Shown here piece after piece: positions 6,616 to 35,170 of a DNA stretch of 40,977 nt. The notes under the pieces are model-generated. The model was not told where the DNA came from. It saw nothing but the letters and a program-made list of their open reading frames with translations, and did not search any database. The stretch comes from a bacterium (GTDB taxonomy: Bacteria; Patescibacteriota; Saccharimonadia; Saccharimonadales; Saccharimonadaceae): assembly GCA_021779755.1 (NCBI GenBank), contig JAJYAA010000002.1, forward strand, positions 1-40,977, given 5' to 3'. Made by a program: the position numbers and the translations under genes. Position 1 is the first letter of the stretch. Each line of letters opens with the position of its first letter.

Positions 6616-6619
6616 ACGT

Positions 6620-7663
<1,044 letters not shown>

Positions 7664-8983: not shown

Positions 8984-9082
8984 AATACTGTCAGTATAGT
9001 AGCTTGGATGATAATAATAAAGTCTAGCGACCTGATTTTCAGGTCACATGTGGATATATTACACATGATATAATCAATCGAT

Positions 9083-9520
9083 ATGAGGATAGCTATTGTT
9101 AGCGGTTTCTTTAATCCATTACACGGTGGGCATTTGGATATGATTGAAGCTGCGGCTGAACTTGGCGACCGGCTGATTGTTATTGTTAATAATGACGTAC
9201 AGCAAGTCTTGAAAAAGGATAAGATTATCCTAAATGAAAATAATAGGATGAGGTTAATGCGGGCACTGAAGTATGTGGACGAGGTCATCCTATCAATAGA
9301 CCAAGACCCGTCTCAGATACAGACGCTTGAGCTAGTTGCTGGGCAATATCCGAATGATGAGCTGATCTTTGCTAATGGTGGGGATAGAGATTCCGAAAAT
9401 GCAATTCCGGAAACCGAAGTTTGTAAGGCGCATAATATCAGGTTGGTTTTTGGAGTCGGCGGCTCCGAAAAAGCCGACTCGTCTACTCGCATCAATCAGG
9501 CTCTCGGTCACGCCAAATAG
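9083..9520 (+). CDS. Cytidylyltransferase-like (adenylyl/cytidylyl transferase) protein
   Basis: SGFFNPLHGGHLDMI (HxGH) nucleotidyltransferase signature. Confidence 0.8.
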   Translation: MRIAIVSGFFNPLHGGHLDMIEAAAELGDRLIVIVNNDVQQVLKKDKIILNENNRMRLMRALKYVDEVILSIDQDPSQIQTLELVAGQYPNDELIFANGGDRDSENAIPETEVCKAHNIRLVFGVGGSEKADSSTRINQALGHAK

Positions 9521-9601
9521 GCACTGTGCCCGTGCTATAATTAACCAGTAGCTTTATAGATTATAATGTAATTCTAGGAATCAGCAAGGACGTTATTTAT
9601 A

Positions 9602-10357
9602 GTGAAAAAAGTGTTAGCCTTTGACCTCGACGACACACTTGCGGTCACGAAATCGCCTATCTCGGACAAAATGAGCGAGACTCTTGCTCGGGTTTTAGAT
9701 GAGTTTGACGTTTGCGTTATATCTGGTGGGTCATTTAGCCAATTTAAGAAGCAGATAATAGACAAGTTGGATATCAGCCCAATGCAACTACGTCGGCTGC
9801 ATTTAATGCCAACTTGCGGAACACGTTATTATCGTTATGACGAGATAAATCGCGATTGGGAACTGCAATACGCTGAGGATTTGAGTGATCAGCAAAAGGG
9901 CGACATTAAAGCTGCTTTAGAGAAGTCGGCAAAGCAGTTGGGTTTGTGGCTCGATCATCCTGCCGGTGATATTATCGAAGATCGTGAAAGTCAAATTACC
10001 TACTCGGCGCTCGGTCAGCAGGCGACACCTGACGATAAATACGCCTGGGATCCTGATGGTGGTAAAAAAGCGACATTGCGCAATTTGGTTGCTGAACAAC
10101 TACCCGACCTAGAGGTACGAGTGGGCGGCACGACTTCAATTGACGTGACTCGTGTTGGAATCGACAAAGCATACGGTATGCACAAACTGATCGATGTGCT
10201 CGAAATCAGCAAGGACGAAATTCTATTTTTTGGCGACAAATTACAAGAAGGCGGCAATGACTATCCAGTTAAAGCCATGGGGATTGAAAGTATTGAAGTC
10301 GACGGCTGGGAAGATACGGTCGGCAGGCTCGAGGCTATCCTGGCGACAATAGAATAA
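9602..10357 (+). CDS. HAD-IIB family phosphatase
   Basis: VLAFDLDDTLAVTK (DxDxT), VISGGS, FFGDKLQEGGNDYP; GTG start. Confidence 0.85.
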   Translation: MKKVLAFDLDDTLAVTKSPISDKMSETLARVLDEFDVCVISGGSFSQFKKQIIDKLDISPMQLRRLHLMPTCGTRYYRYDEINRDWELQYAEDLSDQQKGDIKAALEKSAKQLGLWLDHPAGDIIEDRESQITYSALGQQATPDDKYAWDPDGGKKATLRNLVAEQLPDLEVRVGGTTSIDVTRVGIDKAYGMHKLIDVLEISKDEILFFGDKLQEGGNDYPVKAMGIESIEVDGWEDTVGRLEAILATIE

Positions 10358-14290: not shown

Positions 14291-14730
14291 TGCCAGCCAA
14301 CAGAACAACGAAGCGCCAGCGAGAGTTGCTGAACTTTGTAGATGGTTTTATTCAGGGCCACGGTTACGGTCCGAGCTATCGCGAAATTATGCGTGCCTTG
14401 GGTTACAGGTCCGTGTCGACAGTTGCTATTCATATTAATGGTCTGATAGCAAAGGGTTATTTGCATAAACGCGATAATTCAGCCAGGTCGCTTGAGGTAG
14501 TCACTACTCACCTGGACGATGCCCCGACTAAAAAAGCCCCAACTCCAGCGCAAGAAAAATGGCTGATTAACGCCGTATCAGAGCGATTCGACATATTACA
14601 ACAAGCGCATGACGACAAAGTCCTCGACGAACTCTACGTTTTGATCGGAGCCTTAAAAGTCCTCGGGCTTAATGACGCACACGTTGCGATGAAGGCTAGG
14701 CTAAAGACGGCAGGATTAACAAAGTTATAA
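14290..14730 (+). CDS. LexA-type winged HTH DNA-binding protein lacking the S24 autoprotease domain
   Basis: ATG overlaps upstream stop (TAATG); TKRQRELLNFVDGFIQGHGYGPSYREIMRALGYRSVSTVAIHINGLIAKGYL; C-terminus has no S24 Ser/Lys region. Confidence 0.8.
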   Translation: MPANRTTKRQRELLNFVDGFIQGHGYGPSYREIMRALGYRSVSTVAIHINGLIAKGYLHKRDNSARSLEVVTTHLDDAPTKKAPTPAQEKWLINAVSERFDILQQAHDDKVLDELYVLIGALKVLGLNDAHVAMKARLKTAGLTKL

Positions 14731-14839
14731 ACAATTCGATGTATTTATAACATCGCTATATGTTTGACATAATATTAAACCAAGCTTAAGCTTAGGACAT
14801 AGTAATAAATACAATACAAAAATAAAAAAGGACACCGAT

Positions 14840-16546
14840 ATGAAGTTACTGAAAAGTATTAGACTTAAGCGCCTTGCTGGCGTTTTTATATTCGTGTTTG
14901 CGGTGATCGCAACACAATTCTCGGGCGTACAATTTGCATCTGCTTTGACAACAGACACCTGGACTGGAACGGCCGGGGACGGCAAGTTTAGTACGGCTAC
15001 TAACTGGCAGGGTGGCGTTGCGCCAGTTAATGGCGATGTGTTGGCTTTTGATGTTACGTCCCTAACAGCCAATTCAACCGTTAATAACGATATGACTAAC
15101 CTATCTCTCGCTGGTATCAATTTTAGTGGCACCAACTCTAGCAACGCGGCATACACGATTACGGGTAACGCTATTACATTAACCGGGTCTGTAGTCAATG
15201 CAGCAACCACTACGAGTGGTGGTTCCACGTACTATATGTACAATACGATTCAGGCTAATATTGTATTAGCCGCTGCTGTTGCCCTGCAGAACGTTAATTA
15301 TGGCAGCAGCGCAAGCCAGACTATCGACACAGCCAGCTATGCATTGAGTATATCTGCTTCTAGTTGTAGTGAATTGCCACAGCTAGTTGGGAGCGGTAGC
15401 TTAAACTTGAGTGGTTCTAACGCAAGCTTTGCACTTCAACAGCCAAGCCCTAGTTTCTCTGGGGCAATTAACATCAGTTCTGGTGTTGTATATGCACAAG
15501 CCGGTGCGCTTGGCGATGCATCTGGCGCGACTAATATTTCAGGCACGGGGTCGTTGAATCTTTACGCAAGTGCTGACAGTAGCTGGTCCGAGCCGTTTAA
15601 CCTGGGTGGTAGTGGCTATATTCTAGCTGAACACGGCAGCTCTAACGGCTGTATGGGTTCTTCTGCTGCTACTGCCTATACGGCGACTTTAACAGGTCCA
15701 GTAACTTTACAGAGCGACTTTGCGTATGGTGCCGCAAATGCTTCGTTTGGTTCTGATAATTTGAAAATTACAGGTACATATACAAATAACTCACACTCAT
15801 TCAACGTTGCTGCTGGCGTACCCGGTACTTTAACGCTACCTACTGGCACAGTTCAGGCACCAGTAACGACGAACAAGTATTCTGACAGCCAACCAGCTGT
15901 TGATATAGTGGTCGGGCATAACGACACGACTACGCTTGACGGTGAAAGAGGACGTGTTGACGTAGCGGATGGTGGTATTTTGATGGGTGACGGAACCGCC
16001 GCGAGCGCCTATATCACTAATGGCGGTATTATCGCCCCTGGACACTCGCCAGGAAAACTAACAATAACTCAGACATTGTACCTTGGGGCCGGCTCGATCT
16101 ACCAAGCTCAATTGCAGACTGCGACCGTGGGCGGCTATGACCAAATTCAGGTTAGCGATCCAAGCCGAACGACCGGTAATGATGTTTATATCGACCCAAC
16201 GGCCGTCTTGGATGTATCACTCTATCCCGGATATAATATTAAAAAGGGCGATCAATTTATGATCATCAATAACCTGCAGCCAAGCACACAAAAAGTTACA
16301 GGTACTTTTGCTAACTTGTCCGAAGGTACTCAATTTACGGTTGGTGGTATAACATTCGGTATTAGCTATGTTGGCGGTGACGGCAATGATGTCGTATTAA
16401 CAGCCCTTAGCGCTGGTGCGGCGCCAGTAATACCAAACACCGGTGCTAAGCCTTTAAAACTTGCTAACCCAATAGTCTTGGTGGGTCTGGGTATTATGGC
16501 AGCCGGTATACTGTTGACACTTGCTCGTCGCCGATTTAATAATTAA
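14840..16546 (+). CDS. Secreted beta-strand-rich autotransporter-passenger-like protein with C-terminal sortase signal
   Basis: Signal peptide; DTWTGTAGDGKFSTATNWQGGVAPVNGD; C-terminal VIPNTGAKPLKLANPIVLVGLGIMAAGILLTLARRRFNN (motif + TM + basic tail). Confidence 0.8.
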   Translation: MKLLKSIRLKRLAGVFIFVFAVIATQFSGVQFASALTTDTWTGTAGDGKFSTATNWQGGVAPVNGDVLAFDVTSLTANSTVNNDMTNLSLAGINFSGTNSSNAAYTITGNAITLTGSVVNAATTTSGGSTYYMYNTIQANIVLAAAVALQNVNYGSSASQTIDTASYALSISASSCSELPQLVGSGSLNLSGSNASFALQQPSPSFSGAINISSGVVYAQAGALGDASGATNISGTGSLNLYASADSSWSEPFNLGGSGYILAEHGSSNGCMGSSAATAYTATLTGPVTLQSDFAYGAANASFGSDNLKITGTYTNNSHSFNVAAGVPGTLTLPTGTVQAPVTTNKYSDSQPAVDIVVGHNDTTTLDGERGRVDVADGGILMGDGTAASAYITNGGIIAPGHSPGKLTITQTLYLGAGSIYQAQLQTATVGGYDQIQVSDPSRTTGNDVYIDPTAVLDVSLYPGYNIKKGDQFMIINNLQPSTQKVTGTFANLSEGTQFTVGGITFGISYVGGDGNDVVLTALSAGAAPVIPNTGAKPLKLANPIVLVGLGIMAAGILLTLARRRFNN

Positions 16547-16609
16547 ATAAAACGTAACTTAAAATAACTATATGTAATGAGCGGGGCCGTATAGGCGCTC
16601 GCTCGTTAT

Positions 16610-17647
16610 ATGTATGAGACAAAAAATAAAACAACAAACATGAAAAATGACTTTACGACAACTAGGGGACGTATACGCTCTGAACCAAGAGCTCCTTTTG
16701 TTGCGCGCGAAGTTGTATACGTGCGTCGTCAGCCAGGTGTAGTTCAATATAATACGGTTATTAATTCGGATAGTATCGCTACTCCAGTCAACGAGCCTCG
16801 ACTTATTGATGATATTGTTCGTACGGCGCCAGCTCCTGTTGTCGTGAGTGTGTCTCTACGTTATAGCTTTGCCAAAACGGCTAGACGCGCGGATATTTTG
16901 TACCGCGCGATAGCTAGTAATGGACCAGGCAGTAATACAGACAGTCGAAAAAGAGAACCTAAACTTAAAAAGCATAAAGTTGGTCGTCTACTGTTTGGTA
17001 TTCTGGCTGTTATTGTTCTTGCGGCTACTGGATATATAGGCTTTGATACCTGGCAAATCAATAACCATGCCGAGCATCAAATAACACAAACTGTCAGTGC
17101 GCTAGCGAAGGCGACGGTTGACCCAAAAGCGCATCAAGCCGCTGAGGGTACCGACGAGAAGCCGCTTCCAGATACATCACTCAAGGACTATCATGTTGCC
17201 GCCAGTCTGCCGCGAGCACTCTATATTAGCAAATTAGGTATCGCCGCACGGGTTCTACCGATGGGTGTTAATCCTGATGGCAGTGTTCAGGCACCACTTA
17301 ACATATACGATTCTGGTTGGTATAGCGGTAGTGTTCAGCCAGGTCAGATTGGCGCTGTGTTTATTGATGGGCATGCCTCTGGGCCGACCCATTTTGGCCT
17401 ATTCGGTAATCTCTACAAACTGACGGTTGGCGATACGTTGCAAATTGAGAAGGGTGATGGAACACGCTTGACGTATAAAGTTGTGCATACCGAGGTTGTT
17501 GATAAGGATAAAGTCGATATGAAATCCATGTTGTTGCCGTACGGTAAAGCTCTAAGAGGACTTAATCTAATGACGTGTGCTGGAGAGTGGGTCCAAAACG
17601 GCAAGACTTTATCGCAGAGAGTGCTGGTTTATACAGAACAGATATAA
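16610..17647 (+). CDS. Sortase (class E/F-like) with long cytoplasmic N-terminal extension
   Basis: TM GRLLFGILAVIVLAATGYIGF; ...FIDGHASGPTHFGLFGNLYKL...LNLMTCAGEW catalytic His and Cys. Confidence 0.85.
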   Translation: MYETKNKTTNMKNDFTTTRGRIRSEPRAPFVAREVVYVRRQPGVVQYNTVINSDSIATPVNEPRLIDDIVRTAPAPVVVSVSLRYSFAKTARRADILYRAIASNGPGSNTDSRKREPKLKKHKVGRLLFGILAVIVLAATGYIGFDTWQINNHAEHQITQTVSALAKATVDPKAHQAAEGTDEKPLPDTSLKDYHVAASLPRALYISKLGIAARVLPMGVNPDGSVQAPLNIYDSGWYSGSVQPGQIGAVFIDGHASGPTHFGLFGNLYKLTVGDTLQIEKGDGTRLTYKVVHTEVVDKDKVDMKSMLLPYGKALRGLNLMTCAGEWVQNGKTLSQRVLVYTEQI

Positions 17648-17688
17648 AAGCATAGTCGATATGTTTTGTACGTTATAATATTAAACAG

Positions 17689-19425
17689 ATGATTAACAGG
17701 TGGTTTACCAGGCTATACGACTGGCTCAAGCTTCACCATAAGCGGGTCCTGGTATTTGGGGGCGGCGGTTTTGTTGTTGCTCTTGTGGTGGCTCAATTAT
17801 TATATCCAGCTGATCGGTTATTGCCGCTAGCTTACATTGACGGCCTACCTATGGGGGGTTGGAGTAAATCGGATGCGGTGGTGGCGCTAAATAGCAAATA
17901 CCTACAGACAACAATTGATTTGCATTTTGGGCATAGCAAGAAGGCCTATCGTAGTCCCAACCCAACCGATATTGGTCTGAGTATAGACAACACGGCGCGC
18001 ATCGACGACGCAACCTATCCGTGGTACATTCGTATACTACCAGGGTCATTATTATGGGGGTCATTAGTTACCGGCCCGCACGCGGCACCAACATACACCA
18101 GAGACAGCACGGCAGTTGATGACTATATAAAAAGTGAGTTTGGTGATTCGTGTAGTGTATCGCCTATTGATGCGTCTATAGAGGTGTCGGACGGTAAGCT
18201 GGTTCTACAACATAGTTCACCTGGTGGTGTTTGTAAAGTTGACGATCTCAAACAAGCCTTGTTGCAGGTTGAGCCGATTATTACGGCGCCTAATAGTATA
18301 ACTATATCAGCCGAGGCTGTACCGGCTGTCGTGCGCGATGTTGATGCGCAGAAGTTGATTAGTCAGATTGATACTAAAATTGCTAACGGTATCACGGTGA
18401 CAGTTGGTGACAAAGATATTACTATACCGGCCGCTACTTTAATTAGCTGGCTCGACTTTAGCACTACTGGAAATAAACTGGTATACAGTCTTAACGCCGA
18501 CCGAGCCAGTGAATACTTGACTCAAACCTTTGCCAGCAAGGTTCTGGTTGCGGCTGGTGTGACAACGGTTTCGACTCGCGACTTTGTCGAAATCTCACGC
18601 CAAACCGGCGTAAGCGGACAGACGTTAGACATAACGGGCACATTAACTAATATTAAAGATTTTATTGATGGAACAAGCCCTACGGTTAGTGTTGCGACAA
18701 CTGTTACCGCGCCGACCATTAAATACACACGTAGCTACAGTGCTACCGATACTGGCTTGTCGGCGTTGATGAGTAATTATGCGCAAACTCACGCCGGCAC
18801 TTATGGGGTGTCGTTAATTGAGCTGTCCGGACAATATCGCCGCGCGTCATACAATGCCGAGGCCTCATTTACGACAGCTAGTACCTACAAGCTGTTTGTG
18901 GCATATAGTTCCTTGCTGCGCGTTGAGTCCGGAGAATGGAGTTGGTCGGATCAGATTCAGGGTGGACGCGATTTGGCGACGTGCCTAGACGATATGATTG
19001 TCGTTTCAGATAATGACTGCGGCTATGCTTTACTGACAAAAATTGGTTTTGCCGCAATCACCAACGAAGCTCACGACATCGGTTGTGTGGACACTTCATT
19101 TATGGGTAACGACGGCATCAAAACCACTCCTCAGGACCTAGCGCTGTTTATGGCCGAGCTACAATCTGGACAAATTCTAAAGCAACAGTCCAACCGCGAC
19201 ATATTGATTAATGCTATGAAGCGTAATATCTATAGGCAGGGAATTCCGGCCGGATCGACCGGTGTTGTTGCTGACAAGGTTGGGTTTCTGGATGGATTGT
19301 TGCATGATGCTGCGATTGTTTATTCGCCCGATGGAACGTACGTGCTGGTAATTATGACCGACGGCGCAAGCTGGTCAAATATAGCCGATCTGACTAGCCA
19401 AATCGAAGCCCTAAGAGCACAATAA
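17689..19425 (+). CDS. Membrane-anchored serine hydrolase, class A beta-lactamase fold, with YoaR/PG_binding_4-like N-terminal region
   Basis: TASTYK (SxxK), VSDNDCG (SDN), ADKVGFLDG (KxG) motifs; N-terminal TM; YIDGLPMGGWSKSDAVVALN. Confidence 0.8.
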   Translation: MINRWFTRLYDWLKLHHKRVLVFGGGGFVVALVVAQLLYPADRLLPLAYIDGLPMGGWSKSDAVVALNSKYLQTTIDLHFGHSKKAYRSPNPTDIGLSIDNTARIDDATYPWYIRILPGSLLWGSLVTGPHAAPTYTRDSTAVDDYIKSEFGDSCSVSPIDASIEVSDGKLVLQHSSPGGVCKVDDLKQALLQVEPIITAPNSITISAEAVPAVVRDVDAQKLISQIDTKIANGITVTVGDKDITIPAATLISWLDFSTTGNKLVYSLNADRASEYLTQTFASKVLVAAGVTTVSTRDFVEISRQTGVSGQTLDITGTLTNIKDFIDGTSPTVSVATTVTAPTIKYTRSYSATDTGLSALMSNYAQTHAGTYGVSLIELSGQYRRASYNAEASFTTASTYKLFVAYSSLLRVESGEWSWSDQIQGGRDLATCLDDMIVVSDNDCGYALLTKIGFAAITNEAHDIGCVDTSFMGNDGIKTTPQDLALFMAELQSGQILKQQSNRDILINAMKRNIYRQGIPAGSTGVVADKVGFLDGLLHDAAIVYSPDGTYVLVIMTDGASWSNIADLTSQIEALRAQ

Positions 19426-19499
19426 CGTGTAAGGCGAGTAATCAACGCAGAATAGGCGTTGACGCACCTACCGAGGTAAGGGTATAATATCATCTGTAT

Positions 19500-19574
19500 T
19501 CCGACGTAGCTCAATGGTGGAGCAAGAAGCTGTTAACTTCGAGGTTGCTGGTTCGAGTCCAGCCGTCGGAGCCA
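19500..19574 (+). tRNA. tRNA-Asn (anticodon GTT)
   Basis: Acceptor TCCGACG/CGTCGGA, D-arm GCTC..GAGC, anticodon loop CTGTTAA in GAAG/CTTC, T-arm GCTGG TTCGAGT CCAGC, encoded GCCA end. Confidence 0.95.
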
Positions 19575-19596: not shown

Positions 19597-19622
19597 GACC
19601 GATATCCGTATCGGTCTTTTTT
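19597..19622 (+). terminator. Rho-independent terminator downstream of tRNA-Asn
   Basis: GACCGATA-TCCG-TATCGGTC-TTTTTT. Confidence 0.85.
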
Positions 19623-19636
19623 GTTATAGTTATAGT

Positions 19637-21229
19637 ATGAATCAGGTAAAGCGCAAGACTGTTAAGTCAGCGAACAACGCAGACTTTCAATTAATTACGG
19701 ATATGTCTAGTAAGGAGGCTAAAGCCTATTTTCGCGAGTCGAAGCACTACGTGAACTTTGATTTGCCGCCCTACTTTAAGTTTGACGATGTCATAGTCTA
19801 TGCTGCCTCAATGCTCATCAAGAAGAATCTGTCAGATGTGTGTATGAAGAATAATAAAGGGAAACCAATATTCCCTGGGAATTATGCCGATGTGAACTAT
19901 GTTGTCCTAAGTAACAAAGATGGCGGGTTCGCGTGGAGACCTCTTCAAATTATCCATCCCGTATTATATGTAGACCTTGTTAATATTATGACTGAACCAA
20001 AAGCCTGGTCTGCTATAACCAAGCTTTTTGAAGATAGGAGTAAATCGTCGGTTGAGTGTATCAGTATACCCCTTAAATCTAAGACTGGTGAGTCGAATAG
20101 GGCGGTTCAAGTGAGCAACTGGTGGGATAAGATAGAGCAGGAATCACTTCGAAAGGCGCTCGATTATAAATTTATGTTTCAGACGGACATAACTAATTGT
20201 TATGGTTCTATGTATACACACTCTCTTGAATGGGCGCTAGAACCGGGCGGAAGGTTAAAAGTCAAAGCCGATAGGTCGTCTGGAAAGCAAACAAAAAACC
20301 TCGGAACGGAAATTGATTTCAGACTAAGGCAGATGAACCAGAATCAGACTATAGGTATCCCACAAGGCTCCGCACTTATGGATTTTATAGCAGAGATAGT
20401 GCTAGCTGCCACGGACATCGAACTAACTGACAGGATAAACAATGAATTAAGTGACAAGGACTTCTCCATACTTCGTTATAGGGATGACTATAGAATTTTT
20501 GCTAATGAGTATCAGACCGGCCACGAAATTATGAAGATATTAAATAACGTTCTTTTCAAATGGAATATGAGCATGAATGCCGGCAAAACGCATGAAACAA
20601 GCAATATTATCGCTTCTTCTATTAAACCTGAAAAGATGGAGGAGATATACACGGGCTCTGTTCAGCAGTCATATCAAAAGGCCGCCATGCGTATATATAT
20701 GCTATCTGAAAAGTACCCAAATGCTGGTCTTGTTGCCAAGAACCTGACTGATTACTACGATAGAGTACAAAGGTTAAAGAAATCCGCGAGTATCGACTAC
20801 GAGGTTGTAGTGGCAATTGTCACCATGATTGCTTACTATAGCCCTCGCTATATTGCTCAGGTTGCTTCAATCATTACAACTCTTATAGAGAAGTCAGAGA
20901 AAGCCTTGGATAGAAAAAAGGTGATATCTAAGATTATCGAAAAGTTTAAGGACATACCAAACACTGAACTCATTGATGCCTGGTTGCAGCGCATAGCGGA
21001 TGCTGACGAGATAAGGGGCTATAGCTTTAATAGTATGATTACTAAGGTTGCTCTTGGCGACGAAGACAATTCTAAGTTGTGGAACTCTCAGTGGCTATAC
21101 AAAATCAACAGAAGTCTTATTGATAATGCTGACATATCAAATCTTTCACAAGAGATAGATCGGGGTACGTTTAATCCGATTGTTGGTCGCGAAGAGTTTG
21201 AGCTTTATAGGATAGGATATCCAGACTAG
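19637..21229 (+). CDS. Reverse transcriptase of UG/Abi (DRT-like) type with helical C-terminal extension
   Basis: Motif A FQTDITNCYGSMYTH; motif B GIPQGSALMDFIAEI; motif C RYRDDYRIF; ~200-aa helix-rich C-terminus. Confidence 0.85.
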   Translation: MNQVKRKTVKSANNADFQLITDMSSKEAKAYFRESKHYVNFDLPPYFKFDDVIVYAASMLIKKNLSDVCMKNNKGKPIFPGNYADVNYVVLSNKDGGFAWRPLQIIHPVLYVDLVNIMTEPKAWSAITKLFEDRSKSSVECISIPLKSKTGESNRAVQVSNWWDKIEQESLRKALDYKFMFQTDITNCYGSMYTHSLEWALEPGGRLKVKADRSSGKQTKNLGTEIDFRLRQMNQNQTIGIPQGSALMDFIAEIVLAATDIELTDRINNELSDKDFSILRYRDDYRIFANEYQTGHEIMKILNNVLFKWNMSMNAGKTHETSNIIASSIKPEKMEEIYTGSVQQSYQKAAMRIYMLSEKYPNAGLVAKNLTDYYDRVQRLKKSASIDYEVVVAIVTMIAYYSPRYIAQVASIITTLIEKSEKALDRKKVISKIIEKFKDIPNTELIDAWLQRIADADEIRGYSFNSMITKVALGDEDNSKLWNSQWLYKINRSLIDNADISNLSQEIDRGTFNPIVGREEFELYRIGYPD

Positions 21230-22506
21230 GCGGCCTTTCGAACTATCTTGAGCGCGCCGTTTTTTAACAAGAGTTCACTTACTATTCCAATAACCAGCTG
21301 ACGTTTTTCTGACTCCGAACCTTTCTTTAGTACGTACCTAGCATATTCCACGACCGGATTATCGAGTTGTTGGCTTATATCATAATGTCCCATTAGTATG
21401 TTCGAGGCTTCTCGATGTCGAGAGATTATGTCCGACAATTCTTTTGATGTTTTGAGCTTTTTATAGTTAATGTCTATAAAGTCTTTCAGGATTGTGCACA
21501 TATCCGACTCTCGTATATAGGGTTGCCTACAAGTTCGCTTCGTCCGCCCCGTGCAGCAATAGTAAACGTGTCGCTTGAAACTACCATCTTTCTGTTTCTT
21601 ATATTTCTCTTGTCCGATAATGAGCGTCCCGCATTTACCGCACCTAAACTTACCCTTGAAGACAAAGTCTTTTGATCCCCATACTCCCTTCCAAACATGC
21701 CTAGTTTCCTGAACTTTGTCGAACAGTTCTTTCGTGATGAGTGGTTTGTGAGCACCCTTATACCAAGGTTGGTCTGGACCTTCCGGATATTGGAATTCTC
21801 CGTAGTAGAAGGGGTTGATGAGCATTGCAAGTACGCTACTTACCGGAACCTGTTTACCTGTTCGTGTGATAACGCCTTTTTTATCGAGCCACTCTTTGAG
21901 CCTGCGTCCACTCCAGCCATCGGCGGCTTTATAAAATATTTCAGTAATAATATCTGCTCGGTCAGGGTCGGGTATGATGTCGTTAACGCCACCGAAGCTT
22001 CTATTAATGTAGCCAAGTGGGGCGGTGCCTGGTCGCCAGCCCATCTCACATTTTGCTCGAATACCTCGTTTTACATTGATACTCTTGTTGTCGTTTTCGA
22101 GTTTAGCTTGTGAACACAGGATCATGAGTAGGAATTTCTCGTTTGGATTATTTGAGAAGGTTTGTGAGTACGTCTTAATGTGTAGGAGCTTGCCTTGATC
22201 CATCAGGTCGACAATCGCTCCTAGGTCGCCAGCGTTACGGCTCAGTCGGTCTGGTGCCCAAGTGAGTACGGCGTTATATTTGCCATCCCGTAAGTCTTGT
22301 AACATTCGCATATAGACGGGGCGTTGGCCTGAATCTTTCGCTGAGTGGCTCTCCTGGAGTTCGCACACGACGTTTAATCCTTGAGCTTGCGCCATTGCTC
22401 GCATTTCAGCGAGCTGTGAATCAATTGACATTGCCTGACGTTCGTCGGATTCGCTCGATTTTCGCGCGTATAGACAGTATTTCAGAGGTGATTTTGTATC
22501 CATCAA
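21226..22506 (-). CDS. Large serine recombinase (resolvase + recombinase + zinc ribbon)
   Basis: YCLYARKSSESDERQAMSIDSQ, APDRLSRN, GWRPGTAPLGYIN, FRCGKCGTLI...YYCC. Confidence 0.95.
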   Translation of the reverse strand: MMDTKSPLKYCLYARKSSESDERQAMSIDSQLAEMRAMAQAQGLNVVCELQESHSAKDSGQRPVYMRMLQDLRDGKYNAVLTWAPDRLSRNAGDLGAIVDLMDQGKLLHIKTYSQTFSNNPNEKFLLMILCSQAKLENDNKSINVKRGIRAKCEMGWRPGTAPLGYINRSFGGVNDIIPDPDRADIITEIFYKAADGWSGRRLKEWLDKKGVITRTGKQVPVSSVLAMLINPFYYGEFQYPEGPDQPWYKGAHKPLITKELFDKVQETRHVWKGVWGSKDFVFKGKFRCGKCGTLIIGQEKYKKQKDGSFKRHVYYCCTGRTKRTCRQPYIRESDMCTILKDFIDINYKKLKTSKELSDIISRHREASNILMGHYDISQQLDNPVVEYARYVLKKGSESEKRQLVIGIVSELLLKNGALKIVRKAA

Positions 22507-22541: not shown

Positions 22542-23276
22542 CTATTTTGCTGACCAATCTCCAACGTAATCGCTTAAACCACTAGGTGTATACATGACGT
22601 CGCTAATAGTTGTGTCGCTTGGCATTTGGAACATCACGCATCCTGTGGAGCTTGACCCAGCTGTTAGAGATATCTCATCCCAGATTTTCGTGCCTGAATC
22701 ATCGTAATAAAAGTACGTACACTCGTTCGCAGGCATGCCTACGGGAGTGTAATACTTTTTATCTGATCCAGTAATTATAATGTCATTGGTAATAGGGTAC
22801 GTGTAGGTAGCGCCAGTATTGTTTTTAATGGTGAACTCCACAGCTAGAAGCCGATTCCCAGTATCGGGAGTTTTGTAGGCGCTAGTTACCGGATCGATTA
22901 CTCGAGTTAGTGTGACGGATAGTCCGCTATTGCCTCCAATCTTAAGTGTATCTTCAAACTTTCCGAAGGCATACTTCGACGCATCCACCTGTGCGCTGCT
23001 ATCCTTGGATTTGCTTTGTGATGTTGATGAACTGGTGTTTACGGCGCTATTAACCGCGGACGTAACGATTAAGATATATATCAATGAACAGACTGCGCTC
23101 GATATGACGGATACGATAAGCAGATGTGTGCCGAGTTTTTTATCTAATAGCCTATCCTTAGTGAGGTAAATAATACCGAGGATGATGCCAACAAATGGCA
23201 AGAGCACTGCGATTGTCGTGAATTGCCTATATGAGTCATGTTGGTTGGCTATAACTTCTTTTTTCTGTGTTGACAT
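22542..23276 (-). CDS. Membrane protein with DUF4352-like extracellular domain
   Basis: Two TM segments then GNSGLSVTLTRVIDP...NRLLAVEFTIKNNTGATYTYP. Confidence 0.6.
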   Translation of the reverse strand: MSTQKKEVIANQHDSYRQFTTIAVLLPFVGIILGIIYLTKDRLLDKKLGTHLLIVSVISSAVCSLIYILIVTSAVNSAVNTSSSTSQSKSKDSSAQVDASKYAFGKFEDTLKIGGNSGLSVTLTRVIDPVTSAYKTPDTGNRLLAVEFTIKNNTGATYTYPITNDIIITGSDKKYYTPVGMPANECTYFYYDDSGTKIWDEISLTAGSSSTGCVMFQMPSDTTISDVMYTPSGLSDYVGDWSAK

Positions 23277-23475: not shown

Positions 23476-23784
23476 TCAATTGTAAAGATCTACGGGCTTT
23501 CGTGGCTTCAGGTAACTCCTTTCGTGAGCTTCGAGCCAGTAGGTTATCGCCTTCCATTCACCATCATTCACTTTTTGTATGAGTCTCGACTCGGCTATGT
23601 CACTGATTGCCGAACAACCCTCGTATTTTGCTCGGTCAACATTATACCTAAACGTATTATCATCCTTCATCCATCGGTAAAAGGTCGCCCTTGATATACC
23701 AGTCTTCTGGCAAGCTCGCTCAATGATTGGTACAATTTCAAGCTCCTCAAGAATTTTCTTTTTAGCTCGAACGTTTTTCGTCAT
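23476..23784 (-). CDS. Small HTH protein, phage terminase small-subunit/phBC6A51-like
   Basis: IIERACQKTGISRATFYRWMKDDNTFRYNVDRAKYEG..DIAESRLIQKVNDGEWKAITYWLEAH. Confidence 0.6.
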   Translation of the reverse strand: MTKNVRAKKKILEELEIVPIIERACQKTGISRATFYRWMKDDNTFRYNVDRAKYEGCSAISDIAESRLIQKVNDGEWKAITYWLEAHERSYLKPRKPVDLYN

Positions 23785-25102
23785 TGATCTTCTCCCGCTT
23801 TAGCCCGGTCAACTTCTCCCACCTCCTTAAAGCTACCTCGGCGTATATCGGCGACTTTTCCATGATGTTACATCGTCTTTTGAGTTTAGTGCTTGCAATC
23901 AGCGTCGAGCCGCTGCCGCAAAACGGTTCCACGACTAGGTCGCCTCGTTTGGTGAGTACTTTGATATAGGGGATAAGTATTTCTAGTGGTTTCGTGCCAA
24001 ATATAACACCCTGACCCGAACTCTTTTCGTCATCAGCATTGAACTCAATGAAATCAGTTGGTTGGTATCGCTTGCCGTGCTCGTAGCCTTCCCAAGTAGG
24101 CTTCCCAGCAATCGCATACAATGCAGTCTCGTACTCCTCTTGCAGTCCATCGGGTTCTTCATCGTGATTGTATGCAACCTCACCACTACCCCCAACCATG
24201 GCGATGTCGTGCTTTGAAAAGAATTTGTACTTTGCGGAAAATCCTTGGTGCCGATTTGGGAGGTGCCAACATATCATGTTCTTCACTTTCCAGTACTTTT
24301 CCATCTCTGCCCAGATAATGCGGAGGTTCTTCCAATTCTCGTAACAAATAATAGAGAAGTCCGGTTTGGCATGGGCGGCAACATTCGCCATCCATAGCTC
24401 GGTGAAATTACCTGGTAGAACGTCGGTTTCCAGGTATTTACGGTCTCGCTTCGCGCCAAAACCTTCTGTTGGCTTGCCATGACGTTTTGCGTGCAAATAG
24501 TCCAGTAGGTAAGGGGGGTCTGTGAGTGCTAAGTCGGCCAACTCGCTATTCATAAGTTTGGCGAAATCCTCAGGTACGGTTGAATCTCCGCACATTAAGC
24601 GGCTATCACCAAGCTTATAAACATCACCCTTTTGGACACTAATCTTTTTAATGTCGAGTTTTTCTAATTCCTTTTCTAGGTCGAATTGTTCAGGCGTGTC
24701 GATATCAACATTAAATATGTCATCGAGTTCTTCACTACTAAAACCAACCTCGTCGAGTAGAGTAGGGTCAAACTGAGCGAGTAGCTCATAATTCCATTCA
24801 CCTTGATTCAAATTCAATCGTATATTTAGTTCCTTTTCTTTCTCTTCATCGAGGCTGACGTATACAACTGGAACTTCGGTATAGCCGAGATCTTGTGCCA
24901 CTTTGAGGCGGAAGTGACCACCTATAACTATATTCATGCGCTCAGGTTGGGAGTTAGCGAGCAGGGGTTCGACAAGCCCATATTTCTGAATACTCTCGGT
25001 GAGCTGAGTGATTGCTTCGTCACTCCACTTTCTTGGGTTATATTTTGAGGACTTTAAGTCGCTGATTTTTACCTGCTGAACGGTTAGTGTAGTTAGTGTC
25101 AT
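23762..25102 (-). CDS. ParB-like nuclease domain + DNA (adenine/cytosine-N4) methyltransferase
   Basis: ISDLKSSKYNPRKWSDEAITQLTESIQKYGLVEPLL..GGHFRL; DLALTDPPYLLDYL; VVEPFCGSGST. Confidence 0.92.
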   Translation of the reverse strand: MTLTTLTVQQVKISDLKSSKYNPRKWSDEAITQLTESIQKYGLVEPLLANSQPERMNIVIGGHFRLKVAQDLGYTEVPVVYVSLDEEKEKELNIRLNLNQGEWNYELLAQFDPTLLDEVGFSSEELDDIFNVDIDTPEQFDLEKELEKLDIKKISVQKGDVYKLGDSRLMCGDSTVPEDFAKLMNSELADLALTDPPYLLDYLHAKRHGKPTEGFGAKRDRKYLETDVLPGNFTELWMANVAAHAKPDFSIICYENWKNLRIIWAEMEKYWKVKNMICWHLPNRHQGFSAKYKFFSKHDIAMVGGSGEVAYNHDEEPDGLQEEYETALYAIAGKPTWEGYEHGKRYQPTDFIEFNADDEKSSGQGVIFGTKPLEILIPYIKVLTKRGDLVVEPFCGSGSTLIASTKLKRRCNIMEKSPIYAEVALRRWEKLTGLKREKINDEKRSS

Positions 25103-25172: not shown

Positions 25173-25760
25173 TTACGGGGCTATTGTGTCGATTCGTTCT
25201 TGGTAGCGTTTGATGATTGTCGATACGTATTCAGGCGTGATGGCGTGGCCTTGCTTTGCAAGATAAGCTGCAATTTCCTTATTGCTCATTCCCTTATCAT
25301 GCCTCATGGCAAAGATCTTGCTGTCACGCTCAAGCCTAGGGTAGGGCTGATTCTTCAACGGAGTGTCCTTTATGGTACGAAGCACGTTTTTAACTAGATC
25401 CCACACTGCGTCTATATCCTCCCGTTCGGTCTGGGGGTCAAGCTCGAGATCTACGCCAACTTTTTTGCCTTCACTATCGAATCTCAATTTAATGCGGGGT
25501 CCAATGAGATCGGGAATCAGAACGGCTTTATCTCCAGTTGAGGCATACTGCCTTAGCCCGCTGAGCCATCTCTCGTTTGGGAAGAAAGTCTTTGTAATGT
25601 CTGCAAGAATAGTATCAAGCTCTGAGTTGGTAGCGCCAGCCTTTTTCGCTTCTTTGAATGCAGTAATTCGATCTTGGAATGACCTACTAGCAACAATTCG
25701 TAAAGCCTTTTCGGCCTCACGTTTTCTTAATTGAGTAAGCTTATCAACTTTTTCTGTCAT
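25173..25760 (-). CDS. Hypothetical protein with C-terminal HTH
   Basis: KGMSNKEIAAYLAKQGHAITPEYVSTIIKRYQERI helix-turn-helix-like. Confidence 0.5.
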   Translation of the reverse strand: MTEKVDKLTQLRKREAEKALRIVASRSFQDRITAFKEAKKAGATNSELDTILADITKTFFPNERWLSGLRQYASTGDKAVLIPDLIGPRIKLRFDSEGKKVGVDLELDPQTEREDIDAVWDLVKNVLRTIKDTPLKNQPYPRLERDSKIFAMRHDKGMSNKEIAAYLAKQGHAITPEYVSTIIKRYQERIDTIAP

Positions 25761-25793
25761 TTCACTATTGTACGATCTTAAGCATCATTGTTT

Positions 25794-26807
25794 CTACCAT
25801 TGCTTAGAGATGAGCTGCAAGATAGCAGTAATCTCCTGCTCGTATAGTTTCTTATATCCTTCGATATCAATCATGGCTGCTTCATCGGAAAGCATGTGGT
25901 GGCCACTCAAGTTCCTTATCTTTGCAATGTTTGAAAAAGTTGTTGCGGTGTCGAAATTTGTTGACGTAGCAACTATCTCTTCCAGACTCGTTACGGGAAC
26001 GGACATTGACTCCTGCTTCACATCCGGAAAGTCACGCCTGAATTCACGACTCATTGGCAGGCCTCCCATATTATCGATCATGCCCCCCGAGTCCTTTTTT
26101 GGATAATAGTGTTTGGCGATCGTCTCGAATATCCTACCACCTCGAAATAGGTGCTGAATGACTGGATCGACCGAGGCAATATTGGCACCTGTTAGGTGTA
26201 AGTAATGATATCGTTCTTCGAACTCCATGACAAAGCTATACAGCGCGGTGATAAGTGCATAATTTTCTTGTTTCAAGAACTCTCTGACAAACTTTTCAAC
26301 AAATACGTCTGTATTAATAAGATCTGAGGATGTGTTAACGGCGAAGTTTACGAGGGCATTTTGGATAAAAGTTCGCGTAACCATGACAACAATATCTGCG
26401 GGATGGCCATATTGTTTGAGTTGAACTAGTTTTCCGGCTGGGTTCTCTATCCATACTTCGAATGGTTGACCGTTAGACTTGCGCTGATCTTCTTTGATAG
26501 CAGCGGCAAGATAGAAGTTGGCAGCTTCATAATTCCTCATTTGGAATGCTAACCATCCAAGAAAGAAGAAAGGGGTGCCTTTGTGTAGTTGCTCGTATTT
26601 ATCCGCGTTCTCTTGCTTCAGAAGTAGCAACATTAGTTCGTAGTCGTGGTATCGCTCGAACGGTTCAGTCGCGGCGTCACTGCTACCTGGCCCAAAGTCT
26701 TCAAAAAGCTTGTCGCCACTCACAGGATCAGATGCATCAAGCTGTCGAAACGCTTCAAGCATCTGATCCTTATTATCGTTCATTCTGGTGGATATGAAAT
26801 TGTACAT
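25794..26807 (-). CDS. Hypothetical helical protein of unknown function
   Basis: Long ORF with compatible operon placement; middle WLAFQMRNYEAANFYLAAAI resembles a TPR-like helix pair. Confidence 0.6.
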   Translation of the reverse strand: MYNFISTRMNDNKDQMLEAFRQLDASDPVSGDKLFEDFGPGSSDAATEPFERYHDYELMLLLLKQENADKYEQLHKGTPFFFLGWLAFQMRNYEAANFYLAAAIKEDQRKSNGQPFEVWIENPAGKLVQLKQYGHPADIVVMVTRTFIQNALVNFAVNTSSDLINTDVFVEKFVREFLKQENYALITALYSFVMEFEERYHYLHLTGANIASVDPVIQHLFRGGRIFETIAKHYYPKKDSGGMIDNMGGLPMSREFRRDFPDVKQESMSVPVTSLEEIVATSTNFDTATTFSNIAKIRNLSGHHMLSDEAAMIDIEGYKKLYEQEITAILQLISKQW

Positions 26808-26858
26808 AGCTAGGTTCCTTTAGTATGCGCTTTATGGCTGGTCGAAGTGTCGTTGTCC

Positions 26859-27149
26859 CTAGACCTCTGGTAGATTTAGTAAGTTGTCTGACCATTTGCC
26901 ATCAGATTTGGTTTGAAGGAAGCGAGTTCCGGCGGCACTGACGTTCACGTAGCAGTATACTTTAGTACCATCGCGGCCAATCACGTATGCAGAGTTGCCT
27001 CTATCGATGTAGCTGACCATTACTTGGCGTGTATCGATGCCCGTAGTGTTGTCTGATGGATCAAACCACTTGTAGTGGCTGACTGCTTCGTGACGGTTAT
27101 AATGGTTGCCGTGGTCTTTGCGGATTCCGGTGATTTGTACAGTTGACAT
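26859..27149 (-). CDS. DUF3892-like protein
   Basis: VQITGIRKDHGNHYNRHEAVSHYKW...GTRFLQTKSDGKWSDNLLNLPE. Confidence 0.75.
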   Translation of the reverse strand: MSTVQITGIRKDHGNHYNRHEAVSHYKWFDPSDNTTGIDTRQVMVSYIDRGNSAYVIGRDGTKVYCYVNVSAAGTRFLQTKSDGKWSDNLLNLPEV

Positions 27150-27244
27150 AAAAGTTCTCCTATTAAATTAAATGTGTCCAGAAGGAGACCCAGGTCGGCA
27201 TCCATGCTGGCATAGTTAGTATAAGGGTGATTGCCACCCCAAAT

Positions 27245-27277
27245 TCAATCGCACTCCAAGCTAAGGAGTGCGATTGA
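27245..27277. repeat. 13-bp perfect inverted repeat (hairpin)
   Basis: TCAATCGCACTCC-AAGCTAA-GGAGTGCGATTGA. Confidence 0.9.
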
Positions 27278-27293
27278 TGGTATCGGCGACTCA

Positions 27294-27617
27294 TTACAGC
27301 AGCCCCTTTAAAAGGCCACTGAGCCCTGTATAGTCAATTTTGTCCGACTTCGTGCGGTTGCTTTGCCAGTGTAGTGCGCGCAAGTTGGACGGTTGGTGAG
27401 TCTTAGCTGGGAATAGGGCTTGAGGCAGAATGTGGTCGATTTCCCAACCATATGCTGTCTGAAGACCGTAATCATCCCATTTAATGGTGCGGTTGTAATC
27501 ATCTACACGCCAAATACCAGCATCGTAGCCGATATATGGTCGCGCCTTGTTCCAGGCACCGAGCTTGCGTTGATATTCTTGTTGGCGCTGTGTGATCCAG
27601 TTTAGTGGTTCGTTCAT
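27294..27617 (-). CDS. HNH endonuclease
   Basis: YGWEIDHILPQALFPAKTHQPSNLRALHWQSNRTKSDK. Confidence 0.88.
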   Translation of the reverse strand: MNEPLNWITQRQQEYQRKLGAWNKARPYIGYDAGIWRVDDYNRTIKWDDYGLQTAYGWEIDHILPQALFPAKTHQPSNLRALHWQSNRTKSDKIDYTGLSGLLKGLL

Positions 27618-27746: not shown

Positions 27747-28097
27747 ATGAATGAGGAGGTCAACATGGAAAACCAACGTTTAATCGGTTCACGAATTAAA
27801 CAGTTGCGCAAAAAGAAGGGTTTATCTCAGACGGGCTTGGCTACTTTTATAAACAAGAGTGCTATGCAAGTCTCATATATAGAGAATGGTGAGCGTAAAG
27901 CTGGCCCGGATACTCTGGAGCGCATTGCAAAGGCACTCGACGTAACTGTCGGTGATTTTCTTGCACCTACCGTGACCTCAAGGGTATCGACAATCACATA
28001 TGGTCGTATGTCACCACTTATATCCGTTGATCAAAAAGCTGATGTGGAGCAATCACTCAACGACTTCGATAACTATGTCCGGAGTAATTTGCTGTGA
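27747..28097 (+). CDS. XRE-family HTH repressor
   Basis: GSRIKQLRKKKGLSQTGLATFINKSAMQVSYIENGERKAGPDTLERIAKALDV. Confidence 0.93.
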   Translation: MNEEVNMENQRLIGSRIKQLRKKKGLSQTGLATFINKSAMQVSYIENGERKAGPDTLERIAKALDVTVGDFLAPTVTSRVSTITYGRMSPLISVDQKADVEQSLNDFDNYVRSNLL

Positions 28098-28603
28098 TTC
28101 GATATCCAGCTGCACGGGGAAGAGCGACAAGTGTTCTCAGCATGTTCCATGCTGGTGATGCTCCTGTAGATGTCAAACTAATAGCTCAAAAGCTTGGCTT
28201 TCAGGTTGTACCTTTTGAATTTCCAGACACCATGTCGGCGGTTGTGCGTATTTACGAAGACGGTAAAAAGGTAATAGGAGTCAACAAGAAACAGTCGGAG
28301 GTGCGTCAACGATTTTCAATTGCGCACGAACTTGGCCACTATCTTAGCGGACACGAGAGCTATAATCACGACCAAATCGTCATCGACCCCGAACGTAGGT
28401 ATCAAGACCCTAGCTTCCAGGTTGAACAGGAAGCGGATGAGTTTGCCGCAGAGTTACTGATGCCCAGCAGATTATTGAAGAAAGATTTTGACGGTAGTCC
28501 GTCGTCAATCACTAGCCTGGCTAAGAAGTACAATGTCAGCGAACAGGCTATGTGGATTCAGGTTATCAACCTTGAGCTTGTGGTTGAGGCCCCAGTTTTC
28601 TAG
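28094..28603 (+). CDS. ImmA/IrrE-family metalloprotease
   Basis: FSIAHELGHYLSGHE (HExxH), DEFAAELLMP; overlaps XRE gene by 4 nt. Confidence 0.92.
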   Translation: MIRYPAARGRATSVLSMFHAGDAPVDVKLIAQKLGFQVVPFEFPDTMSAVVRIYEDGKKVIGVNKKQSEVRQRFSIAHELGHYLSGHESYNHDQIVIDPERRYQDPSFQVEQEADEFAAELLMPSRLLKKDFDGSPSSITSLAKKYNVSEQAMWIQVINLELVVEAPVF

Positions 28604-29598: not shown

Positions 29599-30798
29599 AT
29601 GAAAAAGGTTGCTATCGTCGGTTTGGGATATGTTGGCCTTCCGCTTGCACACCGTGCGACTGCCGCGGGCTATCTTGTTTCGGGTGTAGACAGTAGCGAC
29701 AAAGTGATAAATCACCTTGGTCATACTGAGGCGGTGTTCTCTTCCTTATCTAATTCCTACAATAGCGTTAAGATGGTAGATATTGTTGTCGTATGTGTGC
29801 CAACGCCAATTCACGAAGATAAATCTCCTGATCTGAGCCATATTAATAGTGCGTTAATGCAGGTTGGTAAGCGGCTCCACAAGGGCCAGCTGGTAAGTAT
29901 TGAATCGACGGTCTTCCCTGGTTATTGTGCAACGACAGGGCGCCATATCCTAGAGAGTGAATCCGGTCTGGTCGCTGGAAGCGATTTCTATCTCGTACAT
30001 TGCCCAGAGAGGGTTAATCCAGGCGACAGTGTTTGGCATGTCGGCAATATTCCGCGCGTGCTAGGTGCGGTAAACGAAGAGTCTGCCGTGGTTGGCAAGC
30101 GTTTCTATGCCGATATTACCGATGGCGGAGTGTTTGTGACGCGCAATATGGATGAGGCGGAAGCAGCAAAGATGGTCGAGAATACCTTTAGGGATATAAA
30201 CATCGCGTTCGTAAATGAGCTTGCGAAGTCGTTCGATGGCACGAATGTCAGCTTGGTGAGTGTCATTGATGCCGCTTCGACAAAACCCTTCGGCTATATG
30301 CCATTTCGCCCAGGTCTTGGGGTGGGGGGCCATTGCATTCCTGTGGATCCTGAGTATCTTATTGACGCCGCACGTGCTCGTGGGTTTCGGCATGACCTTA
30401 TTATTAATGCGCGCAAGGTTAACGATAGTATGGTAGATTTTGTTGTGAATAAAATACAAAAGAGCGCAAGCGGGAGTGTGGTCGCACTTTTGGGGCTTAC
30501 CTATAAGCCGGGCGTTGCTGATCTGCGCGAGAGCCAAGCAATGAGACTGCGTAATGCTCTTGTCGAAAAAGGCTATAGTGTTATTGCATATGACCCTTTA
30601 GTAGAGTCTGACGTTGAGAATGTTGAAGACGCGCTTGCGGGGGCGGAGACGGTGGTTATTGCGACCGCCCATGAAGAATTCTCCGGTATAGAGGAGCGCA
30701 TTAATAATTTTAGTAGTATTACTTTAGTGTTTGACGCAGGACGGAGCGTTCGTCCGGCGCTTCTCAAAAAGGCTAAGTACATGGGGATTGGCGTGTAA
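29599..30798 (+). CDS. UDP-glucose/UDP-N-acetylmannosamine 6-dehydrogenase family
   Basis: KKVAIVGLGYVGLPLAHRATAAGYLVSGVD, VVCVPTPIHEDKSPDLS, GLGVGGHCIPVDPEYL. Confidence 0.95.
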   Translation: MKKVAIVGLGYVGLPLAHRATAAGYLVSGVDSSDKVINHLGHTEAVFSSLSNSYNSVKMVDIVVVCVPTPIHEDKSPDLSHINSALMQVGKRLHKGQLVSIESTVFPGYCATTGRHILESESGLVAGSDFYLVHCPERVNPGDSVWHVGNIPRVLGAVNEESAVVGKRFYADITDGGVFVTRNMDEAEAAKMVENTFRDINIAFVNELAKSFDGTNVSLVSVIDAASTKPFGYMPFRPGLGVGGHCIPVDPEYLIDAARARGFRHDLIINARKVNDSMVDFVVNKIQKSASGSVVALLGLTYKPGVADLRESQAMRLRNALVEKGYSVIAYDPLVESDVENVEDALAGAETVVIATAHEEFSGIEERINNFSSITLVFDAGRSVRPALLKKAKYMGIGV

Positions 30799-32144
30799 TG
30801 AGTGCGGCTGTTATTGCGTCAATACTCTGCCTGATTATTCTTTTGAGGGCTATTCGTAACCTCTATAACTTACTGAGAAGTCTGAGGTGGCTATCTTCAA
30901 ATTCATTATCTCGACAAAAGGAGGACGCCGGGACGAGATTTATTATATGTATTCCTGCGCTTAATGAGCAAAACACAATAGAGGCGACGCTTGATAAGTT
31001 TCTCGATCAGGAGTACCCCCGTTCTCTCTATTCTGTCTACGTGGTGACGACGTCAAGAGAGCGTCGCAACGCCGCCCGGCCTTCAACGGCTGAGGTTGTT
31101 GAAGCCTATCGCGGTCGCCTTTCTAAGGAGAAAGCGAAGCTGATAAACGTTGTGAACTACCCCAAGAGAGATGGGCGGATGGCACATCAAATCAACTATT
31201 TGGCCCAGAGACTGACGAGCAGCCTGACGCGTGAGAATGTATATTTTGTGATTTATAATGCGGACTCGCATATTTTGCCAAATACGCTTTCTCGCACAGA
31301 CGCTCAAATTGCGTTAGCTAAAAAGCGAACAGGGAGGTATCCGGGGCTTCTTCAGCAGTCTGCACTCTATCAATATCAGGGCCGCGATAGGATTGCGGAA
31401 GGGGCGGGTCTTCATCAGACTCTGTGGACGCTGATGCATGAGGTGCCAAAGATACGCAGCCAGTCCTCTGGATTGGAAAGACTTGGTGACTCTAGGCGCC
31501 GGCTATCGATATTGCTATATAGCCGAATCGCTCACTGTGTGGGGCATGGCTTATTTGTGCACGGACGTTATTACTTAGATCATCCATTTTCCAGCGACAT
31601 ACTCAATGAGGATTTGCCGTACGGCCTACAGGCGTGTGCAATTCGTGAATCGATTCTGCCTATTCCCTCACTTGAGCTCGCGTCTACGCCGGCTAGATTA
31701 AGTATGGTGTACAGACAAAAGAGTGTATGGTTTAATCCCTTTTTTGAATTCTTATCGTTTGGAAGACAGCTGAGCGCCAGGAGGCTTTACAAGTCGAAGT
31801 TTGAGCTGGGTTATCTTGTCGTTCAGGCGTACATACCACTCTTCATTTGGTTGCTTCACAGCATAATCCTACTTGGCGGATTGTTGTTTTGTGTTCTTGC
31901 TGGTCCGTGGTACGTTGCCATGTGGTGTGTCGCAATCTCTGTATATTGGTTCATTCCGGCTGCGATAGTGACTCTTTATAGGAGACGGCTTGATAATGGT
32001 GGTACTAATTCGTTTTGGTCAATAGGATGGGGTGTGGTTTACGTGCTGAGTCACTCCATCGGTCCAATATGGTCGGTGATGAGATGGGGGAGGGCGCGTC
32101 TATTGCATGTCGCGCCGGACAAGCCAAAGACGGAGGCGCTATGA
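30798..32144 (+). CDS. Membrane glycosyltransferase family 2
   Basis: FIICIPALNEQNTIEATLDKFLDQEYPRSLYSVYVVTTS; C-terminal TM helices. Confidence 0.82.
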   Translation: MSAAVIASILCLIILLRAIRNLYNLLRSLRWLSSNSLSRQKEDAGTRFIICIPALNEQNTIEATLDKFLDQEYPRSLYSVYVVTTSRERRNAARPSTAEVVEAYRGRLSKEKAKLINVVNYPKRDGRMAHQINYLAQRLTSSLTRENVYFVIYNADSHILPNTLSRTDAQIALAKKRTGRYPGLLQQSALYQYQGRDRIAEGAGLHQTLWTLMHEVPKIRSQSSGLERLGDSRRRLSILLYSRIAHCVGHGLFVHGRYYLDHPFSSDILNEDLPYGLQACAIRESILPIPSLELASTPARLSMVYRQKSVWFNPFFEFLSFGRQLSARRLYKSKFELGYLVVQAYIPLFIWLLHSIILLGGLLFCVLAGPWYVAMWCVAISVYWFIPAAIVTLYRRRLDNGGTNSFWSIGWGVVYVLSHSIGPIWSVMRWGRARLLHVAPDKPKTEAL

Positions 32145-32767: not shown

Positions 32768-32774
32768 TTTTATT

Positions 32775-35081: not shown

Positions 35082-35139
35082 CTCAATTGGTTGAGGGGCC
35101 GTTTCGTTTGTTGTTTTTCGAGACCGACAAGCTGAGCCA
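35072..35139 (+). pseudogene. tRNA-like relic
   Basis: TTTAGCTCAATTGGTTGAG D-arm-like and TTCGAGACCGACAAGCTGAGCCA with same T-loop to CCA spacing (23 nt) as tRNA-Asn; stems do not pair. Confidence 0.3.
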
Positions 35140-35170
35140 TGAAAAGAAGAGTCCTTGTGGCTCTTTTTTT
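35134..35170 (+). terminator. Rho-independent terminator
   Basis: GAGCCA...TGGCTC followed by TTTTTTT. Confidence 0.7.

Follow-up and report, generated by a model that had tools for sequence, protein, structure and literature searches.

We identify the open reading frame (ORF) at positions 19637–21229 (plus strand) of the window (the whole 40,977 nt stretch of DNA that was analysed) as a gene for a 530 aa reverse transcriptase (RT)-like polymerase which, judged from its sequence, is a full-length, new member of the known AbiP2 family and not a new kind of system. Very probably we are dealing with an antiphage polymerase of AbiP2 type that consists of a single gene and travels as exchangeable cargo on a site-specific integrative element found in Saccharibacteria. 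A known antiphage polymerase that is biochemically understood is thereby extended to the genome-reduced Saccharibacteria, in which defence appears to be little described (in the open-licence literature we found no paper combining Saccharibacteria, defense systems and reverse transcriptase). More surprising than the family membership of the RT is the placement of its near relatives in restriction operons.

The initial annotation had described the ORF as a UG/Abi-type candidate antiphage RT with palm motifs, a description that holds and can now be sharpened to AbiP2 on the evidence of profile search, PDB comparison, predicted fold and phylogeny. The frame is intact, running from the ATG at 19637 to the stop at 21229, and carries the palm motifs FQTDITNCY (residues 181–189), GIPQGSAL (240–247) and RYRDDYRIF (280–288). 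Since RVT_1 (PF00078) scores 33 bits against a cut-off of 29.6, and the PADLOC AbiP2 profile matches residues 18–524 with 526.6 bits (E 1.5e-158), the match is not due to chance; the next PADLOC class, UG14, reaches 175.6 bits. By sequence, the closest PDB chain is Abi-P2 (7r08; E 1.1e-66, residues 19–487). Within a maximum-likelihood tree of 29 rows, the RT and three other Saccharibacteria proteins form a 100/100 group inside an AbiP2 set of 21 rows, the fork that joins these 21 rows being moderately supported (90/87) and the Listeria phage row falling just outside it; the reference rows for UG14, Drt3b, AbiK and Drt6 lie outside the AbiP2 group. The closest known relative (63% identity) is encoded on a contig of Candidatus Saccharibacteria bacterium UBA5148, and further relatives are found on plasmids of Pediococcus, Lentilactobacillus and Enterococcus faecium (35–38%), on enterobacterial plasmids (33%) and in E. 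coli P2-like phages and Listeria phage records (28–33%), with another 32 in IMG/VR. The bin that contains the window (54 contigs) measures 689 kb, which supports a small, Saccharibacteria-type genome, and the RT ORF is the sole RVT_1 gene found in it.

The E. coli Abi-P2 protein of the P2-like prophages P2-EC30 and P2-EC58 (7r08) is homologous to the RT over its full length (approximately 33% identity). The two have in common the RT and helical domains, the catalytic aspartates and the LPxY priming tyrosine, and each is a single gene on an integrated mobile element; they differ in host (a saccharibacterium versus E. coli) and in carrier (a serine-recombinase element at tRNA-Asn versus a P2-like prophage), and the defence role is, for the RT, a predicted one. 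Abi-P2 forms trimers and makes DNA template-free, with priming that requires Tyr61 but not Tyr46, the Y61F variant being inactive (Figiel et al., PMC9508834), and it protects E. coli against T5 (PMC9508834, PMC11077055). Pairwise alignment to the P2-EC30 protein places RT Tyr46 (codon 19772–19774, plus strand; LPxY motif) opposite Tyr61, and RT Tyr31 opposite the dispensable Tyr46 of Abi-P2. In two alignments of AbiP2 relatives (A1 and A2, with 11 and 25 rows, two rows being common to both), the Tyr61 position is Tyr in all aligned AbiP2 rows, the Tyr46 position is Tyr, Phe or His, and Asp184 (motif A; codon 20186–20188, plus strand), Asp283 and Asp284 (YRDD, motif C; codons 20483–20488, plus strand) are constant in every row. 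Among related genomes, UG14-like and UG21-like RTs lack the LPxY tyrosine.

The AlphaFold model of the RT (25 sequences; pLDDT 83, pTM 0.83) consists of an RT palm and fingers followed by a C-terminal helical array (alpha solenoid), which bears out the long helix-rich C-terminus of the initial annotation. In a Foldseek search all six 7r08 chains come out on top (E 5e-25 to 2e-22, best 4.7e-25), followed by DRT4 (5.5e-12), DRT6, UG15, AbiK and AbiA. Superposed as a whole, the model and 7r08 agree poorly (TM about 0.5, rmsd about 26 Å), which means that their two lobes are not placed alike with respect to each other; the two-lobe arrangement, or the model itself, may differ from 7r08, and because of this mismatch quaternary details are not to be read from the model. 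AbiK, DRT4, DRT6 and Drt3b (class 1 UG/Abi RTs) share the RT palm and helical solenoid with the RT, but they form separate clades and their profile and fold scores are much weaker. An origin from DGR, retron or group II RTs, which had been argued against from the start, is rejected by the profile scores, by the tree and by the fold search, in which such structures score far lower (E about 1e-5 or weaker); the RNA hallmarks of these three groups were likewise not found, the Rfam search giving no family match apart from tRNA.

Considering the biochemistry of Abi-P2 and AbiK, we suggest that the RT is likely to perform protein-primed, template-free DNA synthesis in antiphage defence. The protein would form a trimer or hexamer, begin DNA synthesis on the hydroxyl of Tyr46 and add nucleotides without a template via Asp184, Asp283 and Asp284; the product would be a single-stranded DNA joined to the protein, which would keep the phage from multiplying, possibly at a cost to the cell. 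Template-free synthesis has been reported for the class 1 UG/Abi systems studied (PMC13174585).

Two of the four members of the clade of the RT, that is, two of its three nearest relatives, lie in the gap between hsdS and hsdR of a type I restriction operon. At L002:6667–14403 (63% identity to the RT) the order is hsdM, a 170 aa gene, hsdS, AbiP2 and hsdR, where the last stretch of hsdS overlaps AbiP2 and the AbiP2 stop codon touches the hsdR start; at L119:53–5297 (53% identity) it is hsdS, AbiP2 and hsdR. The two loci come from two different Saccharibacteria families and represent the closest and the outermost members of the four-row clade. Farther afield, a type I system adjoins AbiP2 on a Lentilactobacillus plasmid and an HsdM-like gene follows AbiP2 on an Enterococcus plasmid. 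There is a precedent in PrrC, whose gene lies inside a type IC hsd locus and which is activated as an abortive effector when restriction is inhibited (PMC12707154, PMC3506569), and the placement of AbiP2 in hsd operons suggests, by analogy, a restriction-guard role in that clade. What is common to both is an effector within a restriction operon, and the analogy is a working one only, PrrC being an anticodon nuclease with an ABC-ATPase domain and not an RT-like polymerase. Extended to the window, the argument would be that AbiP2 of the Saccharibacteria clade is silenced by the type I restriction complex and freed when a phage inhibits restriction, as PrrC is in EcoprrI, and that the window copy is a detached descendant acting alone or watching another partner (for example, the ParB-methyltransferase described below). 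The overlapping or nearly abutting genes of L002 and L119, the type I genes on the two plasmids and the PrrC precedent speak for this explanation, but the window RT, although of the same clade, stands alone, with no hsd genes beside it and no HsdR of the tested family in its 84%-complete bin; moreover, most other AbiP2 loci have no hsd genes nearby, and co-location by itself is no proof of regulation. On balance we consider it unlikely. We hold as more doubtful still the wider proposal that AbiP2 of the Saccharibacteria clade represents a restriction guard of a new type, in which a template-free, protein-primed polymerase would be silenced by HsdMSR and freed by phage anti-restriction, the window copy having spread stand-alone via a tRNA-Asn element family that shuttles defence/resistance cargo among episymbionts. 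With the hsdS–AbiP2–hsdR layout of the relatives, the model of an RT as restriction guard can be put directly to the test.

In the explanation that we favour, a single-gene polymerase carried as exchangeable cargo, the RT lies just inside the left end of an element that measures 15,565 bp (15.6 kb), start to start, between two GAGCCA cores. The insertion target is tRNA-Asn (GTT; 19500–19574, plus strand; ARAGORN and Rfam), which remains complete at the element's left end. Its acceptor 3' end plus CCA constitutes the attL core (19569–19574, plus strand), and the same core, which is also common to the empty sites, recurs as attR at 35134–35139 (plus strand), directly before the displaced native tRNA-Asn terminator in the right flank of the host (35140–35171, plus strand), the same or a near-identical sequence being found directly after tRNA-Asn in L040 and L014. 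L040 (contig C52, same bin) is colinear with the window at 14372–19574 (5.2 kb, 76% identity) and, directly past its tRNA-Asn, is 89% identical to the window from 35134 onwards; therefore, the window has an insertion between the two cores. Although C52 may well be a contaminant from a sister species (the alternative being a duplicated locus), such an origin leaves it usable as an empty site, and L014 (G015, same genus), where tRNA-Asn is followed at once by an almost identical native terminator, provides an independent one. Other insertions, in L045 and L051, end in the same GAGCCA core (attR junctions). No long direct repeat flanking the element was found; the common core is 6 bp, a length sufficient for a serine recombinase.

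With an integrase, an att core at both ends, an empty site and a whole tRNA, the locus has the make-up of a tRNA-targeted serine-recombinase integrative element, and carriage on a mobile element, as proposed in the initial annotation, is upheld by the empty sites and the attL and attR cores. The serine recombinase of the element would recombine at the 3' end of tRNA-Asn and leave the tRNA whole with a new terminator, and cargo could therefore be exchanged without disturbing the tRNA. Composition is rejected as a sign of foreign origin: the G+C content of the RT gene (40.6%) differs mildly from that of the left flank (45.6%), and that of the whole element (45.4%) does not differ. At the right end of the element (35072–35139) there is a tRNA-like stretch with a D-arm-like TAGCTCAATTGGTTGAG, ending in GAGCCA, which may be left over from a tRNA or belong to the recombinase site.

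The large serine recombinase (integrase; 21226–22506, minus strand) carries Pfam Resolvase, Recombinase and Zn_ribbon_recom domains and matches phrog_95 (integrase); it is convergent with the RT ORF, the end of which overlaps the recombinase stop by 4 nt, as had been noted. On the same strand there follow a DUF4352 protein (22542–23276; Pfam), an HTH protein like the phage terminase small subunit (23476–23784; phrog_4102, E 1.3e-8), a ParB-domain DNA methyltransferase (23762–25102; Pfam ParB_N and N6_N4_Mtase) and a set of small element genes (195 aa, 337 aa, DUF3892 and HNH-like; 25173–27617; profile matches), and then, on the plus strand, a pair comprising an HTH_3 regulator and an ImmA/IrrE-type M78 peptidase (27747–28603; Pfam). 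A second block at 29599–35081 (plus strand; Pfam), encoding a UDP-sugar dehydrogenase, glycosyltransferases, and HAD-like and polysaccharide deacetylase-like proteins, lies inside the att cores and had no matches in the related element loci searched; it seems, then, that the element that carries the RT also has surface-sugar genes as cargo. The element proteins that were tested included no capsid or portal protein, and the element may be a prophage remnant, a satellite or a mobilisable island.

Relatives of the recombinase in other genomes (54–68% identity) indicate how such elements are organized. In 15 of the 16 loci with the upstream tRNA in view (two further loci were left out, their contigs being too short), tRNA-Asn stands directly upstream in the convergent layout, the remaining locus having tRNA-Met; three more distant recombinases (52–53%) are located at tRNA-Gln, and eleven contigs in IMG/VR carry related recombinases. 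The terminase-small-subunit-like protein and the ParB-methyltransferase (mostly 64–78% identity) are conserved after the recombinase in most related loci. The slot between tRNA and recombinase ranges from 0.2 to 5.8 kb and is variable in content. Occupied by AbiP2 in the window, it holds a UG14-class RT in G083 (L041:8404–11510), in the same position beside tRNA-Asn and a 59%-identical recombinase and of similar length, but of a different class (UG14, 206 bits) and without the LPxY tyrosine. Elsewhere it contains PADLOC candidate-defence proteins (L082, L084, L098), uncharacterised single genes (L083, L086), copper or other metal transport genes, judged from their translations (L087, L089–L091, L094, L095), or an ABC-F-like ATPase with an APH-family kinase (L088); metal or antibiotic resistance is one kind of cargo. 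Going by these contents, the tRNA-Asn slot takes up cargo in general, of which defence genes are one part, and is not reserved for defence; an element family with one exchangeable slot by tRNA-Asn is a simple place to seek defence/resistance cargo in uncultured episymbionts. That cargo varies from one element to the next would also suit an RT gene that has decayed, or rides along neutrally on the element, and that now has no function, but the full-length frame and the intactness of all invariant catalytic and priming residues make this very improbable.

Two further kinds of slot content may be recorded here. L084 (slot 4781–8893) and L085 (flipped, slot 6013–8198) have a conserved uncharacterised gene pair, encoding a nuclease-like protein of 369/407 aa and a protein of 226–227 aa, that resembles a defence unit and is a candidate for one; a KAP NTPase stands beside the pair in L084 only, and not in L085. 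The slots of L083 and L086 (flipped; 8880–9857 and 8474–9427) contain a single-gene cargo of 317–325 aa, which in L083 has no PADLOC or Pfam match.

Returning to the RT as stand-alone cargo, we propose that its message would be leaderless and start from a promoter of its own. The tRNA-Asn is preceded by a promoter-like TTGACG-18-TATAAT (19459–19488, plus strand; 11/12 in a consensus scan) and is separated from the RT gene by an intrinsic terminator (19597–19622, plus strand; an 8 bp stem at 19597–19616 with a 4 nt loop, then TTTTTT), for which the folding z of the region is -3.7 and which is supplied by the element, the empty site having a different native terminator. No Shine–Dalgarno sequence precedes the RT ATG, just as first reported, and a -10-like TATAGT (19625–19630, plus strand) stands six bases 5' of it, at a spacing that would suit a leaderless transcript. 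Of the two routes offered in the initial annotation, leaderless expression fits and read-through from tRNA-Asn does not: the latter is rejected as the main route, and is unlikely because of the strong terminator in between. A leaderless RT message from the gene's own promoter is plausible since several window genes that lack a Shine–Dalgarno sequence have a TANNNT box approximately 12–17 bases 5' of the start, as at the RT, a pattern which points to the common use of leaderless messages in this genome. Examples of such starts in the window are those at 7618 (minus), 8983 (minus), 17689 (plus), 25760 (minus) and 35887 (plus).

The lack of room for an adjacent ncRNA of the DRT2/DRT9 layout, also remarked on in the initial annotation, is consistent with AbiP2, which is not known to use one. 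That the RT depends, in the manner of DRT2/DRT9, on an RNA template or partner that has escaped recognition, and does not work template-free, is least probable of all: some related UG RTs use ncRNAs (PMC12596737, PMC12489045), but at the RT there is no room on the 3' side, the 5' side offers only the 62 nt from the tRNA-Asn end (19574) to the ATG, filled by the terminator and promoter-like box, no Rfam family beyond tRNA was matched, and both family and fold are those of AbiP2, for which template-free synthesis has been described (PMC9508834).

Finally, AbiP2 is rare but recurrent in these small genomes. Profile matches at E 1e-20 or better occur in 11 of the 393 genomes of the class, nine of them being AbiP2 along almost the full length of the profile (an internal stop interrupts one) and two closer to UG14. 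The carriage of such an RT had been called noteworthy, which stands as regards a mobile element in a small genome but only in part as regards any exceptional status, AbiP2 being found in about 2% of the sampled class. Across the phylum sample, 3 of 380 genomes match AbiP2 at E 1e-60, one of the three lying outside the class.
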